Of a DNA stretch of 64,000 nt, positions 24,845 to 58,786 are shown in pieces. Each line of letters opens with the position of its first letter. Position 1 is the stretch's first letter. Location of the stretch: assembly GCA_002898275.1 (NCBI GenBank), contig BEIQ01000004.1, positions 248,001 through 312,000 of the forward strand, in the 5' to 3' direction. Origin of the DNA: a bacterium HR40. Its GTDB lineage: Bacteria; Pseudomonadota; Alphaproteobacteria; Geminicoccales; Geminicoccaceae. The notes beneath the pieces were generated by a model. The model ran no database searches. It was not told the DNA's origin and saw only the letters and a list, made by a program, of their open reading frames with translations. The translations under genes and the position numbers were made by a program.

Positions 24845-25777
24845 TCAATCCGCAGCGATGCGCCGGCCGTCGGCTGGCGACGAAAGGGCGACCTCCGGTG
24901 CCGCGGTCGCCGGCCGCAGTCGGAGGGCGGCCTCGGCGACGGCGCGGCTCACCGCGTGCATGACCGCGGCGAGCCGTTCACCGCCGGCATGCGGCTCGTG
25001 GCTGCGCTCGTCGAGGAACAGGCCGCGACGGATCTCGATCTGCAGGGCGTGGATGCCGGCCGCGGGTCGGCCATAGGTTTCGGTGATGTGGCCGCCGGCG
25101 AAGGGGCGGTTGCGTTCGCACACGAGACCGCTGTCGCGCAGCCGGGCCAGGGCCGCCTCGACCAGGGTGGGTGCGGCGCTCTGCCCGAAGCGGTCGCCGA
25201 TGGCGACATCCACCACCGGGCCGAGGTCGGCGGCGGCCGAGGTCGGCATGGAGTGGACATCGAGCAGGACCGCCACGCCAAAGCGTGCCCGCAGGCTGTC
25301 GAGGATGCGGGCGAGTTCGCGGTGATAGGGGTAATAGACGGTGTGCAGACGGCGGGCGACCTCCGCCGAACCGAGGGGCCGGCGCCAGAGCGGGCGAGTG
25401 CCGAGGCGCGAGGGTACCACGCCGAGACCTGCGCGCACCCGAAGCGACAGACGCGGCCGTAGGGAGGGGGCGAGGTCGGGGACGAGAGCGGGATCGATCT
25501 CGAGGGGATCGCGGTTGAGATCGACGAACACCCGTCGCAGGCGGGCGACCAGCATGGTCGCGCCGTCCGCCACGGCGGCGGCGAACAGCCGGTGCACCGG
25601 ACCATCGTCCAGCTCGCGCAGCTCCTCGGGGGAAAGCGCGAGACCCGCCGCCGCCTCGGGCGGCAGCAGCATGCCGCTGTGCGGTGCGGAGATCAAAAGC
25701 GGCAGCGAGACCTGCGCCGGTTCGTGGCGATCGAAGGGGGCAGAGAAGGTGTGCAGCGTGTCGGGTCCGTCCACCAT
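24845..25777 (-). CDS. N-formylglutamate amidohydrolase family protein
   Basis: 310 residues of the HutG-type N-formylglutamate amidohydrolase (FGase) family. Visible: LPLLISAPHSGMLLPP, VFVDLNRDPLEIDP, LLDVHSMPT with the metal-binding His, GHITETYGRP and HALQIEIRRGLFLDE, the core motifs of the family. Members deformylate N-formylglutamate in histidine degradation, but many alphaproteobacterial copies are outside hut operons, as here, and their substrates are untested. ATG 25777 is taken because family similarity begins a few residues after it. No other hut genes are in the window. It is divergent from the ArsR-methyltransferase gene, sharing a 122-bp gap with a strong promoter. Confidence 0.85.
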   Translation of the reverse strand: MVDGPDTLHTFSAPFDRHEPAQVSLPLLISAPHSGMLLPPEAAAGLALSPEELRELDDGPVHRLFAAAVADGATMLVARLRRVFVDLNRDPLEIDPALVPDLAPSLRPRLSLRVRAGLGVVPSRLGTRPLWRRPLGSAEVARRLHTVYYPYHRELARILDSLRARFGVAVLLDVHSMPTSAAADLGPVVDVAIGDRFGQSAAPTLVEAALARLRDSGLVCERNRPFAGGHITETYGRPAAGIHALQIEIRRGLFLDERSHEPHAGGERLAAVMHAVSRAVAEAALRLRPATAAPEVALSSPADGRRIAAD

Positions 25778-25841
25778 GGCCCTCGCAGATGACCACAGGG
25801 GCGGAGGATCGGCAAGCGGCGCTGCTGGGGCGGTGCAGGGA

Positions 25842-25873
25842 TTGACATGCCGATATAGAGAGCTCTTTATATC
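25842..25873 (+). promoter_or_regulatory. Promoter with palindromic operator of the ArsR-metF unit
   Basis: TTGACA at 25842-25847 is a perfect -35 box. TTTATA or TTATAT at 25866-25872 serves as -10. A 22-base palindrome (25852-25873) covers the spacer and -10: half-site GATATA, centre AGAGCTCT, half-site TATATC, with only one mismatched pair. An ArsR-family dimer bound here would block transcription. The following gene is an ArsR-type regulator, so autoregulation is likely. The site resembles what I recall of SahR operators; this was not verified. Confidence 0.75.
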
Positions 25874-25899
25874 TTTGTCTGCCTCGCCGAGGCTCTCCC

Positions 25900-26892
25900 G
25901 TGTCGCCACAAGGGTTCGACGCTTTCCTCCGGGGACTGCGCGCTGCCGCCGATCCGAGCCGACTGCGTCTGCTCGCCATCTGCGCCCAGGGCGAATGGAC
26001 GGTGAGCGAGCTCGTCGACATCCTCGGCCAGAGCCAGCCCCGCATCTCGCGCCATCTGCGCATCCTCGCCGATGCCGGTCTGCTCGATCGCTTCCGCGAG
26101 GGCAGTTGGGTGTTCTACCGGCGCGCACAGAGCGGCGAGGGAGCGCGCATCGCTCGCACCATCTGCCGGCTTTTGCCGGCCGGCGAGCCACAGTTGGTGC
26201 GCGACCGCGAGCGGCTCGAGGCGGTGCGCGCCGCCCGCCGGGCCGAGGCGGAACGGTATTTCGATAGCCGTGCCGCGGGCTGGGATAGCGAACGCGACCT
26301 CGGTGTCGACGGGGCGCGCGTCGAGGCCTTGCTCGTCGAGCGGTTCGCCCGCGAGCGGCCGCGCGCTCTGCTCGATATCGGCACCGGTACCGGGCGGCTG
26401 CTCGAGGTCCTCGCTTCCCATGTGGGGACAGCGACCGGCATCGACATCTCTCACGACATGCTCAAGATCGCTCGCGCCCGCCTCGATCGGCTCGAGCTCC
26501 GCAACTGCGAGGTGCGGCACGCCGACATGTACCGGCTGCCGTTCGCCGACGGCAGTTTCGATGCGGTGACCATCCACCAGGTGTTGCATTTCGCCGACGA
26601 TCCCGAAGCGGTGCTGCGGGAAGCGGTGCGGGTGCTGGAGCCGGGCGGTCGGCTCGTGGTGGTCGATCTGCTGCGCCACGATCGCGAGGAGATGCGGCGC
26701 GAGCGCCGACACCGTCGGCTCGGCTTCGAGCCGGAAGAGATGTCGGCCTGGTTTGCCGCTCTCGGGCTCGACGAGGAGGAACCGATTCGCTTCGACGGCG
26801 AGCAGCTGTCGGTAGCGGTATGGTGGGCCCGTCGGGACAGGCTGGCGGAGGTGGGGTCGGAACGCCTGGCGAGGGGGAGACGGGCCGCATGA
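25900..26892 (+). CDS. ArsR-family regulator fused to SAM-dependent methyltransferase
   Basis: 330 residues. Residues 1-100 form a winged-helix ArsR domain: LRAAADPSRLRLLAICAQGEWTVSELVDILGQSQPRISRHLRIL. From about residue 125 a class I methyltransferase follows, with motif I LLDIGTGTGRLLEVL, IDISHDMLKIARARL, and LEPGGRLVVVDLL. No metal-sensing CxC of the classic arsenic or zinc regulators is seen, so a metabolite is the likelier signal. Fusions like this commonly sit upstream of metF in alphaproteobacteria and are linked to methionine/SAH control (SahR-like, by inference). GTG start 25900 follows GAGG by seven bases; the ATGA overlap couples it to metF. Confidence 0.9.
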   Translation: MSPQGFDAFLRGLRAAADPSRLRLLAICAQGEWTVSELVDILGQSQPRISRHLRILADAGLLDRFREGSWVFYRRAQSGEGARIARTICRLLPAGEPQLVRDRERLEAVRAARRAEAERYFDSRAAGWDSERDLGVDGARVEALLVERFARERPRALLDIGTGTGRLLEVLASHVGTATGIDISHDMLKIARARLDRLELRNCEVRHADMYRLPFADGSFDAVTIHQVLHFADDPEAVLREAVRVLEPGGRLVVVDLLRHDREEMRRERRHRRLGFEPEEMSAWFAALGLDEEEPIRFDGEQLSVAVWWARRDRLAEVGSERLARGRRAA

Positions 26893-27815
26893 ATCGCGAC
26901 CTCATCGAGCTCTACGAGCCGATCTTGCGAGCGCGCAGCCCGGAATTGCCGCTGCCGCCTTTCACCCTGTCGGTGGAGGTCTTCCCGCCCCGCACGCCGG
27001 AGGCGACGGTTGCTTTCTGGCAGGAACTCGGGGAGATGCGGGAGGTGGCTCCGGCCTTCGTCTCCATCACCTGCGGTGCCGGTGGCACCGGACGGGACGG
27101 CACGTTCCCGCTCGCCCTCGAGGTCCGCCGTCGTCTCGGCCTCGAAGTGGCGGCGCATCTCACCTGCGCTGGCCACTCGCGAGCCGAGGTGGATGCGCTC
27201 GCCGAGGCCTACTGGCAAAACGGCATCCGACGGCTGGTGGCGTTGCGGGGCGATCCTCCCCGCGGCAGTGGCCCCTATCGGCCGCGGCCAGATGGCTATG
27301 CCTACGCCGTCGATCTCGTCCGCGGGCTCAAGGCGATCGCACCCTTCGACATCAGCGTTGCCGGCTACCCCGAAACCCACCCCGAGGCGCCCGACCCCGA
27401 GTTCGATCTCGACAATGTCCGACGCAAGGTCGAGGCAGGAGCGAGCCGTGTCATCGGCCAATATTGCTTCGACACGGACCGCATCCTCCGCTATCGCGAT
27501 GCCCTGATCGCGCGCGGCGTCTCGGTGCCCTTCGTCCCGGGGATCATGCCGATCCACAGCTTCGCCCAGATCGCCCGCTTCAGCGCCCGCTGCGGTGCCG
27601 CCATCCCGGACTGGCTCGCCCGCATGTTCGAGGGTGTGCCCGAAGGCTCCACGCTCCACACCATGCTGGCCGCCAGCGTCGTCGCCGAGCAGGTCCGCCG
27701 GCTCGTGCGCGAGGGTTTTCGGCACTTCCATGTCTATGCCTTGAACCGGGCTGCTCCGACCCGTGCCATCTGCCGGCTGCTCGATCTGCCGGCGGTGCGC
27801 GAGGCGGCTGCCTGA
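26889..27815 (+). CDS. metF: 5,10-Methylenetetrahydrofolate reductase
   Basis: 308-residue flavin enzyme reducing 5,10-methylene-THF to 5-methyl-THF, the methyl donor for methionine synthesis. TIM-barrel signatures: LSVEVFPPRTPEA near the N terminus, FVSITCGAGGTGRDGT, AAHLTCAGHSRAEVD, LRGDPPRGSG, ISVAGYPETHPEAP, and GASRVIGQYCFDTDRIL. The ATG overlaps the stop of the ArsR-methyltransferase gene, and the palindromic operator upstream would control both. Converges with the FAD/GcvT dehydrogenase gene 13 bp away. Confidence 0.96.
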   Translation: MNRDLIELYEPILRARSPELPLPPFTLSVEVFPPRTPEATVAFWQELGEMREVAPAFVSITCGAGGTGRDGTFPLALEVRRRLGLEVAAHLTCAGHSRAEVDALAEAYWQNGIRRLVALRGDPPRGSGPYRPRPDGYAYAVDLVRGLKAIAPFDISVAGYPETHPEAPDPEFDLDNVRRKVEAGASRVIGQYCFDTDRILRYRDALIARGVSVPFVPGIMPIHSFAQIARFSARCGAAIPDWLARMFEGVPEGSTLHTMLAASVVAEQVRRLVREGFRHFHVYALNRAAPTRAICRLLDLPAVREAAA

Positions 27816-27828
27816 AGATCGGGCAGGC

Positions 27829-30279
27829 TCAGCCGCGCATCCTCTGACCCGTCGGATCGTAGAACGGGCGGAGTTGCAGGGTCGCGGCCACCGGCTCGCA
27901 GGCCACTTCCACTTCGAAGCCGCCGGTGGCGAGCCATTCCGCCGACACGCCAGCCGGGTGCTCGACCCAGCCGAGGCCGAAGGAGCCGCCGAGACGAAAG
28001 CCGAAGCTGCCGGAGCTCACCGCGCCGACGATCCGGCCGTCTTTGCGGATGGGCTCGTCGTGGTAGAGTAGCTTGGTCGGATCGGCGAGGCGCAGGCAGA
28101 CGAGCCGCCGCCGCGGCGGCTTCGCTTCGCGCAGCGCCAAAAGCGCGTCGCGGCCGATGAAACCGCCGGGCTTGTCCCAGGCGACGGTGAAGCCGAGCCC
28201 AGCCTCGAGCGGTGTGTCTTCGGGACCGAGGTCGTGTCCGTAGTGACGAAATCCCTTTTCCACTCGGCAGGCGTTCAGCGCGTGCATGCCGGCGAAGGCG
28301 AGATCGAAGCGGGCGCCGGCCTCCACGATGCGCTCGAAGACATGCAGGGCGAACTCGCTCGGCACGTAGAGTTCGTAGCCCAGCTCGCCGACGTAGGAAA
28401 TGCGATGGGCCCGGACCTCGGCGTAGCCGATCTCGAGCAGGCGCGAGGTGGCGAAGGGAAAGGCGGTGTCCGAGACATCCTCGCCGCAGAGCTCGGCCAA
28501 GAGGGCGCGCGCCCCCGGTCCCATGAGGCCGAGTACGGCGAGGCCCGAGGTCACGTCGGTGACGGCGACCCGCGCATCTGCTGGAAGGTGACGGCGCAGC
28601 CAGGTGAGGTCGCGCAGCTGGGAGGCGGCGGAGGTGACGATCAAGAACTCGCTTTCGGCCAGACGCGTCACCGTGAGGTCGGCTTCCATGCCGCCCGCCT
28701 CGTTGAGCCATGGAGTGTAGACGATGCGGCCCAGCGGCACGTCCACGTCGTTGGCGCAGATGCGGTCGAGCGCGCGGCAAGCATCCGGGCCTTGGACGAG
28801 GAACTTGGCGAAGCTCGACAGATCGAAGAGGGCCACCCGATCGCGCACCGCGGCGCACTCGCGGGCCGCGGCGACATACCAGTTCTGGCGACCGTAGCTA
28901 TAGCGGTATTCCCTTTCCATTCCGGGAAGCGCGAACCAGTTCGGCCGCTCGAAGCCGGCGACCTCGCCCATGACCGCCCCAGCCGCCAGCAGTCGGTCGT
29001 GGAACGGCGACCGGCGGGCTCCGCGGGCGGTCGCATATTGGCGGTGAGGCCAGTGCATGGCGTAGAGGAGGCCGAGGCTCTCCTTTGTGCGATCGAAGAG
29101 ATATCGGCGGGTCGCTTGGAACGGCTGCAGGCGCCGGACGTCGACATCGAGCAGGTCGACCGGCATCCGTCGCTTTTGGATCCATTCCGCCACCACCTTG
29201 CCGACCCCGCCCGACGACTGGATGCCGATCGAATTCATGCCGCAGGCGACGAAGAGACCGCGCACCTCGGCCGTCTCGCCGACGAGATAGCGGTTGTCCG
29301 GGGTAAAGCTCTCGGGGCCGTTGAAGAAGGTGGCGATGCCTACCCGGCCGAGGAGCGGCAGGCGGCGGCTGGCCGCCTCGAGGATGGGGGCGAAATGGTC
29401 GAGATCCGCGGGCAGGGTGTCGAAGGCGAAGTCTCGCGGAATGCCGTCCATGCCCCACGGGCGCGCCTCGGGTTCGAAGCAGCCGAAGAGCAGCCGGCCG
29501 GCATCCTCCTTGTAGTAGGTACACTCGTCGGGCACCCGCAAGACCGGCAGATCGCGCGGCAGATCGGCAATCGGCTCGGTCACCGCATAGAAGTGCTCGG
29601 CGGCATGGAGCGGCAGGTGCACGCCGACGGCGCGAGCGAGGGCATGCGACCACATGCCGGCGGCGAGTACCACCACCTCCGCCCGCACCTCGCCCAAGGG
29701 GGTGCGCACGCCGACCGCCCGGCCATTCGCCACGAGGATCCGATCGACCTCGACACCCTCGACGATGCGGGCTCCGCGCATGCGGGCACCCTTGGCGAGG
29801 GCGAGGGTGGTGCCGACGGGATCCGTCTGACCGTCCTTGGGCAGGAAGATCCCGCCCACCACCCCGGTGAGATCGAGGATGGGATAGCGGGAGCGGATGT
29901 CGGCCGGCCCCACCACCTCGACCTCGAGACCGAAGTTGCGCGCCATCGAGGCGCCGCGCTTCAGTTCCTCGAAGCGCTCGTCGTGGAGCGCGAGGGCGAG
30001 CGAGCCGTTCTGGCGAAAGCCGGTGGCCTGACCGGTTTCGGCCTCGAGACCGGCGAACAGTTCGGAGGTGTATTTCGCGAGCTCCGTGAGGTTGCGGGTG
30101 GCGCGCAGCTGGCCAACGAGACCTGCGGCATGCCAGGTGGTGCCACAGGTGAGCTGTCGCCGCTCGAGCAACAGGACGTCGGTGATTCCTGCTCTCGTCA
30201 GGTGATAGGCGATCGAGCAGCCGACCGCACCGCCGCCGATGACCACCACCTCGGCCCGTTCGGGAAGTTCGATCCTCAT
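27829..30279 (-). CDS. FAD-dependent dehydrogenase with GcvT domain (sarcosine/dimethylglycine dehydrogenase-like)
   Basis: 816 residues. The N-terminal DAO-type FAD domain has the dinucleotide motif VVVIGGGAVGCSIAYHL and CGTTWHAAGLVGQL, where His50 is the residue covalently linked to FAD in dimethylglycine dehydrogenases. The C-terminal half is a GcvT-like folate domain (LFDLSSFAKFLVQGPDA, ISYVGELGYELYVP, HALNACRVEKGFRHYGHDL). Such enzymes demethylate sarcosine or dimethylglycine and pass the one-carbon unit to tetrahydrofolate, producing the substrate of MetF encoded next door. ATG 30279 is chosen because the FAD motif begins nine residues later. Exact substrate unknown. Convergent with metF; no other choline/betaine genes are seen. 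Confidence 0.88.
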   Translation of the reverse strand: MRIELPERAEVVVIGGGAVGCSIAYHLTRAGITDVLLLERRQLTCGTTWHAAGLVGQLRATRNLTELAKYTSELFAGLEAETGQATGFRQNGSLALALHDERFEELKRGASMARNFGLEVEVVGPADIRSRYPILDLTGVVGGIFLPKDGQTDPVGTTLALAKGARMRGARIVEGVEVDRILVANGRAVGVRTPLGEVRAEVVVLAAGMWSHALARAVGVHLPLHAAEHFYAVTEPIADLPRDLPVLRVPDECTYYKEDAGRLLFGCFEPEARPWGMDGIPRDFAFDTLPADLDHFAPILEAASRRLPLLGRVGIATFFNGPESFTPDNRYLVGETAEVRGLFVACGMNSIGIQSSGGVGKVVAEWIQKRRMPVDLLDVDVRRLQPFQATRRYLFDRTKESLGLLYAMHWPHRQYATARGARRSPFHDRLLAAGAVMGEVAGFERPNWFALPGMEREYRYSYGRQNWYVAAARECAAVRDRVALFDLSSFAKFLVQGPDACRALDRICANDVDVPLGRIVYTPWLNEAGGMEADLTVTRLAESEFLIVTSAASQLRDLTWLRRHLPADARVAVTDVTSGLAVLGLMGPGARALLAELCGEDVSDTAFPFATSRLLEIGYAEVRAHRISYVGELGYELYVPSEFALHVFERIVEAGARFDLAFAGMHALNACRVEKGFRHYGHDLGPEDTPLEAGLGFTVAWDKPGGFIGRDALLALREAKPPRRRLVCLRLADPTKLLYHDEPIRKDGRIVGAVSSGSFGFRLGGSFGLGWVEHPAGVSAEWLATGGFEVEVACEPVAATLQLRPFYDPTGQRMRG

Positions 30280-30401
30280 CTGCGGGCTCTCCCAGCCTCC
30301 CGCCCAGGCTATGGAGCGCGCGCGGCGACATCTGCTTGTCTCGAGGCGACATCGGCTCCCGCCGAGGCGGCTTGAAGCCACCGCATCGTCGGCCCAGATG
30401 G

Positions 30402-56913: not shown

Positions 56914-57681
56914 CTAGTCCGTGCGCCGGCGGAAACGAAAGTACACCGGCCGCCGACCGGCCGCGAGGGCTTTCTGTTCGTAGCGGGTGGGCGGCCAGTC
57001 GGCCGGCCGCTCGCGCCAGTCGGCGGCTCGCTCGGCGAGCCACTCGAGCCGGGGCTCGGCGAGACAGGCGGCGAGGATCCAGCGAGCGTAGCCGACGTCG
57101 TCGGTGGCGATCCGGAGTTCGCCACCGGGCCGCAGAAGACGGGCGAACTCGGCTACGGTCTCGGGGTTGACGATGCGCCGCTTGTGGTGACGCTTCTTCG
57201 GCCAGGGATCGGGGAAGAGAACGAAAATGCGGCCGAGGCTGCCATCGGGCAGCGCCGGCAGCAACAGCCGGGCATCGTCCGGGAAGATTCGGATATTGCC
57301 GAGACCGCCGGCGGTCATCTCGGCGAGCAGGCGTGCCACGCCGGTCACGAACGGCTCGACTCCGACGAACCCCACGTCGGGATGGGCGCGCGCTTGGCTT
57401 GCGAGATGCTCGCCGCCGCCGAAGCCGATCTCGAGCCACACCTCGCGCGCCGCTGGGAACAGCTGGGCAGGGTCGAGCCGCCCGTCCTCGGGCAACAGGA
57501 GTTCGACCTCCGGCAGCCGCGTTTCGAGAAGCCGCCGGCGGCCAGGCCGCAGACGCGGTCCCTTGCGGCGGCCGTAGAGCAGTCGCCGAGGTCGAGCGGC
57601 TGCTTTCTGCCGCCGAGCCTCAGGCGAAGCGCCGGCGGAGTTCGTCGACGAGATCGGTGCGCTCCCAAGAGAAGCCGCCAT
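56914..57681 (-). CDS. trmB: tRNA (guanine-N7)-methyltransferase TrmB
   Basis: Methylates G46 of tRNAs. Signature parts are [42 protein letters not shown] (SAM motif I), [16 protein letters not shown] and [13 protein letters not shown]. The conserved region starts about 12 residues after the metK stop, but no ATG, GTG or TTG lies there. The nearest start in frame is ATG 57681, inside metK, giving 255 residues with about 62 bases overlap; TrmB is usually 220-240 residues. Either this overlapping start or a rare start codon nearer the metK end is used. Confidence 0.88.
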
Positions 57682-58786
57682 CGGGTTCGGGATCGCGGCC
57701 GAAGTGCCCGTAGGCAGCTGTGCGGGCGTAGATCGGTCGATTGAGCCCGAGCCGCTCGCGGATAGCGCGCGGGCTGAGATCGATTTCGTGGAAAAAGCGG
57801 GCCAGCCGCTTCGGATCGACTTCCCCGGTGTCCATGAGATCGACATAGATGGAAAGCGGCTTCGACACCCCGATGGCATAGGCCAGCTGGATCAGACACT
57901 TGCGGGCGAGCCCTGCCGCCACCACGTTCTTCGCCAGGTATCGAGCGGCATAGGCGGCGGAACGGTCGACCTTGGTCGGATCCTTGCCCGAAAAGGCGCC
58001 GCCGCCGTGCGGTGCAGCCCCGCCGTAGGTGTCGACGATGATCTTCCGGCCAGTGAGCCCGGCATCGCCCTCCGGTCCCCCGATCACGAAACGGCCGGTC
58101 GGATTGACGTAGAAATCGTTTTCGGACGGCATCCACCCCTCGGGCAGCACCCGGCGGACATGCTCGCGAACGATCTCGCGCACTTGCGCCTGGCAAACGT
58201 CGGCGCGATGCTGGGTGGAGACGACCACGCAGGTGGCCTCCACCGGCCGCCCGTCGACATAGCGGAGGCTCACCTGGCTCTTGGCATCGGGGCCGAGTTG
58301 GGGGAGCTCGCCCGAGTGTCGCGCCCGCGACAGGCTCTGGAGGATGCGGTGGGCGTACCAGATCGGCGCCGGCATGAGGGCGGGTGTCTCGTCGCAGGCA
58401 TAGCCGAACATGATGCCCTGGTCGCCGGCGCCCTCGTCCTTGTCCTCGCGGGCGTCGACGCCGAGCGCGATGTCGGCCGATTGCTCGTGCAGCAGCACGT
58501 CGATCTGCACCGTCCGCCAGTCGAAGCCAGGCTGGGTGTAGCCGATGTGACGGATAGCCTCCCGGGCGATGCAGCGGATGTGATCGGCGGTGATGATCTC
58601 GGGCCCGCGCACTTCGCCGGCGATCACCACCCGGTTGGTGGTGACGAGGGTCTCGCAGGCGACGCGCGAATAAGGATAGGCCCGCAGATAGGCGTCTACC
58701 ACCTCGTCCGAGATGCGATCGCAGACCTTGTCCGGATGCCCTTCGGACACCGACTCGCTGGTGAAGACGTAATCGGAAAGCGGCAT
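57620..58786 (-). CDS. metK: S-adenosylmethionine synthase MetK
   Basis: 388 residues. Makes SAM from methionine and ATP. Conserved: [36 protein letters not shown] and [23 protein letters not shown]. It overlaps the trmB gene at its 3' end, so SAM synthesis and a SAM-using tRNA methylase are coupled. Promoter candidate at 58841-58869. No match to a SAM riboswitch is recognised in the 48-base leader. Confidence 0.97.

Follow-up and report, generated by a model that had tools for sequence, protein, structure and literature searches.

The locus described here lies in a 64,000-nucleotide stretch of the genome of a Geminicoccaceae bacterium, hereafter called the window, and comprises a gene for an ArsR-type regulator fused to a class I SAM-dependent methyltransferase, the metF gene behind it, and a palindromic element in front of both (Table 1). 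The fusion, first proposed in an earlier note made from the sequence alone, is borne out by the Pfam domains. The NCBIfam model for metalloregulators of the ArsR/SmtB type scores 75.8 bits against a cut-off of 55, and the AlphaFold2 model of the protein (pLDDT 94) has a confident two-domain architecture. Its methyltransferase half superposes on SAH-bound enzymes, for example 8ys9_B (Z 23.3, rmsd 2.1, 190 residues), among the structure matches listed, none of which could be recognised by name as a solved SahR structure. In a tree of alpha- and some gamma-proteobacterial loci, the protein falls within a 24-row family group (support 100/100), itself inside a 31-row group, and the rows closest to it, which are L003 and L004, have weak support (88/57).

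Table 1. Features of the sahR-metF locus, its surroundings in the window, and the methionine-synthase genes elsewhere in the genome (window positions unless a locus is named)
Feature	Position	Strand	Basis or remark
-35 element, TTGACA	25842-25847	+	read from sequence
Operator (predicted), near-palindrome GATATAGAGAGCTCTTTATATC, 22 bp	25852-25873	none	10/11 pairs; starts four bases after TTGACA
Presumed -10, CTTTAT (17 nt spacing) or TTTATA (18 nt), within operator	25865-25871	+	placed by spacing; not among the results of the consensus scan
sahR-type gene, ArsR HTH + class I SAM methyltransferase, GTG start, 330 aa	25900-26892	+	Pfam, NCBIfam, AlphaFold2
HTH_5 (ArsR) domain, aa 18-63	25951-26088	+	Pfam
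Methyltransf_11 domain, aa 158-254	26371-26661	+	Pfam
metF, 5,10-methylenetetrahydrofolate reductase, 308 aa	26889-27815	+	MTHFR, E 3.6e-77; ATGA overlap with sahR end
FAD oxidoreductase/GcvT fusion gene	27829-30381	-	DAO, FAO_M, GCV_T; convergent with metF
metK	57620-58786	-	
RACo/RamA-type activator, pterin-binding, DUF1638 and B12-binding genes, together	L085 480-5129	-	own genome
Homocysteine-methyltransferase gene, on another contig	L087 2671-3675	+	own genome

Upstream of the fusion gene, the earlier note had read a near-perfect 22-base palindrome seated on the -10 of a strong promoter. The palindrome is present, and the spacing puts the presumed -10 inside it; the strong promoter is half supported, with a perfect -35 element but 0 promoters from a sigma-70 consensus scan of positions 25600-28000. 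An operator that covers the promoter spacer and the -10 would fit repression. Symmetry alone proves nothing here, because the window holds four 22-bp palindromes in which 10 or more of the 11 positions pair, and 20 random sequences of first order hold one to eight apiece; since equal symmetry arises by chance, it was dropped as evidence in its own right. Scored with a matrix built from 33 sites of relatives, its own site left out, the operator reaches 29.2 bits, slightly under the lowest of the 33 training sites (29.7), with 4.8 bits for the next non-overlapping position in the window and maxima of 2.0-11.9 for eight random 64-kb sequences. Of the 25 family loci L002-L026, among them the present one, 12 have TTGAC ahead of the site, and in 11 of these the distance is again 4 bases.

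A protein search of 60 related genomes returned some match (E <= 0.001) in 58 and a strong one (E <= 1.4e-71) in 44, the present genome included; two draft genomes of the family, G022 and G024, had no strong match. Forty-three of the 44 strong-match loci were read, all but that of G006, whose match stops at residue 218, and so were 80 named loci from species genomes. The coupling of the fusion gene to metF, which the earlier note had stated, is conserved: metF lies downstream and in the same direction in all of the 43 loci except L099, and downstream in 78 of the 80, the exceptions being L141, which runs off its contig, and L148, which has a methionine synthase next.

The motif SATATAAAGANNTNTNNATATS, derived from the first 30 loci and searched within about 200 bp upstream of the homologues, occurs at <=2 mismatches before 32 of the 43 and 53 of the 80, and at <=3 mismatches before 37 and 67, respectively; the 43-locus set is partly circular for this test, and the two sets are not independent, because at least four contigs, judged by length, are common to both. 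When every upstream stretch was shuffled ten times (first order), the means were 0.0 at <=2 mismatches and 0.0-0.1 at <=3. Conservation of the operator before homologues, unlike its symmetry, exceeds chance. A site at <=2 mismatches is missing in 11 of the 43, where upstream DNA is absent from a single locus, and in 27 of the 80. Within the family, 22 of the 25 loci carry the site at <=2 mismatches, the other three being L017 with four, L025 with five, and L022, which has no upstream DNA. Most family sites have a nearly fixed left half (ATATAAAGA) and, on the right, TACATAT or TAGATAT. Several other alpha-proteobacteria have a site that forms a full inverted repeat, for example CATATAAAGATATCTTTATATG, and the window operator belongs to this symmetric type. 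The palindrome is thus not absent from relatives with the same gene pair, the outcome that the earlier note had named as telling against its reading, and conservation together with the gene pair supports the palindrome as a predicted operator and metF as its predicted target.

The divergent N-formylglutamate amidohydrolase gene (start 25777) was considered as a further target and rejected, since no other locus in the set examined (L003-L031 with flanks of about 1.5 kb, L101-L180 with flanks of up to 3 kb) has it next to sahR. On the far side of metF, the FAD oxidoreductase/GcvT fusion resembles dimethylglycine or sarcosine dehydrogenases and, judged by this resemblance, would feed one-carbon units to the substrate of MetF; none of the other loci examined shows it next to metF.

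An ArsR-type HTH fused to a SAM-methyltransferase domain is a trait of SahR, characterised from Desulfovibrio, for which the founding study is said to be that of Novichkov et al. in 2014. Beyond the operon, the same motif recurs in relatives at genes of the SAM cycle. Genomes that have a sahR-type gene hold 18 distinct extra sites at <=2 mismatches, and 17 of these, all but G031:C75, were examined; the count is confined to genomes with a full-length homologue, which excludes, for example, G032, G036, G038, and G043. SAM-cycle genes lie behind 11 of the 17, namely ahcY behind seven, metK behind two, and a homocysteine methyltransferase and metE behind one each, the metE assignment being read from its translation; six (L069, L075, L080, L082, L083 and L084) matched none of the seven query genes. 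Three loci (L069, L075 and L072) were inspected as ORF lists, and at L069 2407-2428 (G039:C1:2227406) a zero-mismatch SahR-type site lies between genes whose ORF translations are methyl-accepting chemotaxis-like and class I methyltransferase-like, the latter being a possible SAM-using target. Across six named genomes (Pelagibius, Azospirillum, Roseospira, Sneathiella, Tistrella and Bosea), the 11 sites divide into six at sahR, four at ahcY, and one other.

These features correspond closely to what is described for SahR by Leyn et al. 2014 (PMC4239095): an ArsR-family regulator with a palindromic operator before its own gene, metF as a core target, and a motif that recurs upstream of ahcY, metK, and methionine-synthase genes, here in the relatives, whose sites reproduce the published core regulon. 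Operator conservation, metF linkage, and the motif at SAM-cycle genes of relatives all favor SahR as the closest known system, which the earlier note had named. In Ensifer aridi, deletion of sahR is reported to have increased the activity of sahR's own promoter (PMC8877191). SamR of the Xanthomonadales, described as a distant SahR homologue controlling methionine genes, is a poorer match: its 24-bp motif shares ATC-N10-GAT and lies beside metH1 and metH2 (PMC4239095), a pattern not found in the present operator, which reads GAT-N16-ATC and lies beside metF.

The present genome differs from this picture in that sahR-metF alone bears the site. A search at its ahcY, metK, and methionine-synthase genes, of the kind that the earlier note had suggested, found no SahR-type site, although relatives do have such sites; the best matrix scores were -1.6 at ahcY, -4.6 upstream of metK, which lies about 30 kb from sahR-metF, and -5.1 and -3.8 at the methionine-synthase loci. 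Genome-wide at <=3 mismatches, the motif gave the operator and one dissimilar 3-mismatch match, and the reversed control pattern also gave one. A riboswitch for metF, metK, ahcY, or methionine synthase was rejected, as there was no such Rfam match at gathering scores in the window or in L085, L086, L087, and L002; the only Rfam match in the window is a tRNA.

The canonical metH of the operon gave no match over the cut-off in this genome, and MetE is ruled out by the lack of any metE match. What the genome does have are separate homocysteine-methyltransferase, pterin-binding, and B12-binding genes with a RACo-type activator and DUF1638 (Table 1), a set that has been described as a split methionine synthase (PMC5764234, PMC12478193) and that here carries no motif. 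Among 19 family genomes, metH is over the cut-off in 14 and in pieces at contig ends in two more, and in all 16 it, or its beginning, adjoins sahR-metF; it is missing from the present genome, G008 (a draft), and G018. The single good site and the absence of metH lead to a local reading of a regulon that has apparently shrunk to sahR-metF, along with a loss of canonical metH. Of the two relatives that likewise have no metH, G008 has the sahR site only, among the sites listed, and G018 has the motif at L074 2945-2966 (G018:C5:2797944), about 0.4 kb upstream of the homocysteine-methyltransferase gene of its split synthase. The extent of the regulon is not a defining trait of SahR, because it varies by genome in the study of Leyn et al. 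2014, where the core is taken as over 70% of genomes (PMC4239095).

We consider it highly probable that the locus is a genuine and conserved operon of the SahR type, known in kind, for which we infer repression and SAH as the effector from published work on the SahR family. Counting against this reading are the lack of a site at this genome's ahcY, metK, and methionine-synthase genes, the score of the operator below those of all 33 training sites, the missing consensus promoter, the homologues that have no site at <=2 mismatches, and the six extra sites with no SAM-cycle gene behind them. By analogy with the published work, the ArsR-methyltransferase protein, presumably as a dimer, would repress sahR-metF by binding the operator, which covers the presumed -10 ahead of its own gene. 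The methyltransferase fold would act as the sensor: S-adenosylhomocysteine (SAH), when accumulated, would fill the SAM pocket, and its occupancy would weaken DNA binding and so raise MetF, the extra MetF then supplying methyl-tetrahydrofolate for the remethylation of homocysteine.

The methyltransferase half is complete by motifs, as the earlier note had claimed, but the kept SAM-binding motifs do not separate a catalytic from a sensor role. Likewise, three histidines (H226, H260 and H271) are invariant in all 43 homologues and H230 is kept in 42 of them, a pattern equally compatible with a ligand pocket and with an active site. These residues would be put to use if SahR were a trigger enzyme, in which the methyltransferase half uses SAM to methylate an acceptor held by the four histidines and the SAH made or bound releases the operator; DNA binding would then reflect methylation turnover in addition to the SAH level, and in this lineage the protein would be a dedicated MetF controller after the loss of canonical MetH. 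We regard such a scheme as unlikely.

Arsenic enters the argument through a protein of very similar description. In Brevundimonas sp. M20, an ArsR/methyltransferase fusion called ArsR^M, which is the product of the first gene of an arsR^M-metF-HMT-metH operon and contains, like the protein here, an H-Q-x-x-H motif, is reported to shift a probe of its own promoter, to methylate arsenite with SAM at 0.87 U/mg, and to confer greater arsenite resistance on E. coli (PMC10190100). Its promoter palindrome has CTTTATAT/ATATAAAG arms, which are shared with the operator here, and from the operon, the motif arms, and the domain plan we infer that it belongs to the same family as the present protein. The latter could by this token be a regulator and an enzyme in one, with a methyltransferase half that is catalytic, for example on arsenite, in a protein that also regulates the met operon, and the kept SAM motifs and histidines are compatible with this. 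No cysteine is invariant in the 43 proteins (the best column has 35 of 43, and three proteins have one cysteine only), and conserved As(III)-binding cysteines such as those of ArsM were not found among them. Of the Gln and Tyr proposed from docking as As(III) contacts of the Brevundimonas protein, placed here by motif position, the former would correspond to Q227 (38 of 43) and the latter to F231 (Phe in 34 of 43). Operon and motif, moreover, point to the SAM cycle, and SahR goes unmentioned in the available portion of the Brevundimonas paper. We regard a combined regulator and enzyme of this type as quite improbable here. A conventional ArsR repressor that responds to metals or arsenic, its methyltransferase tail passive and its place beside metF due to chance, would account for the ArsR-family HTH and the ArsR/SmtB score and is very improbable indeed given the conserved metF linkage, the recurrence of the motif at SAM-cycle genes, and the want of an invariant cysteine.

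There are thus two lines of papers on what is seemingly one gene family, the first describing SahR as an SAH-responsive repressor and the second describing ArsR^M as an arsenite methyltransferase, and the two claims can be tested against each other. As a SahR-type operon, the locus adds a Geminicoccaceae case to the SahR picture. It also points to a way in which a small regulon may shrink: canonical metH no longer stands next to metF, the split B12-dependent synthase has no operator, and sahR-metF alone keeps one, in contrast to G018, where the homocysteine subunit of the split synthase bears the motif.
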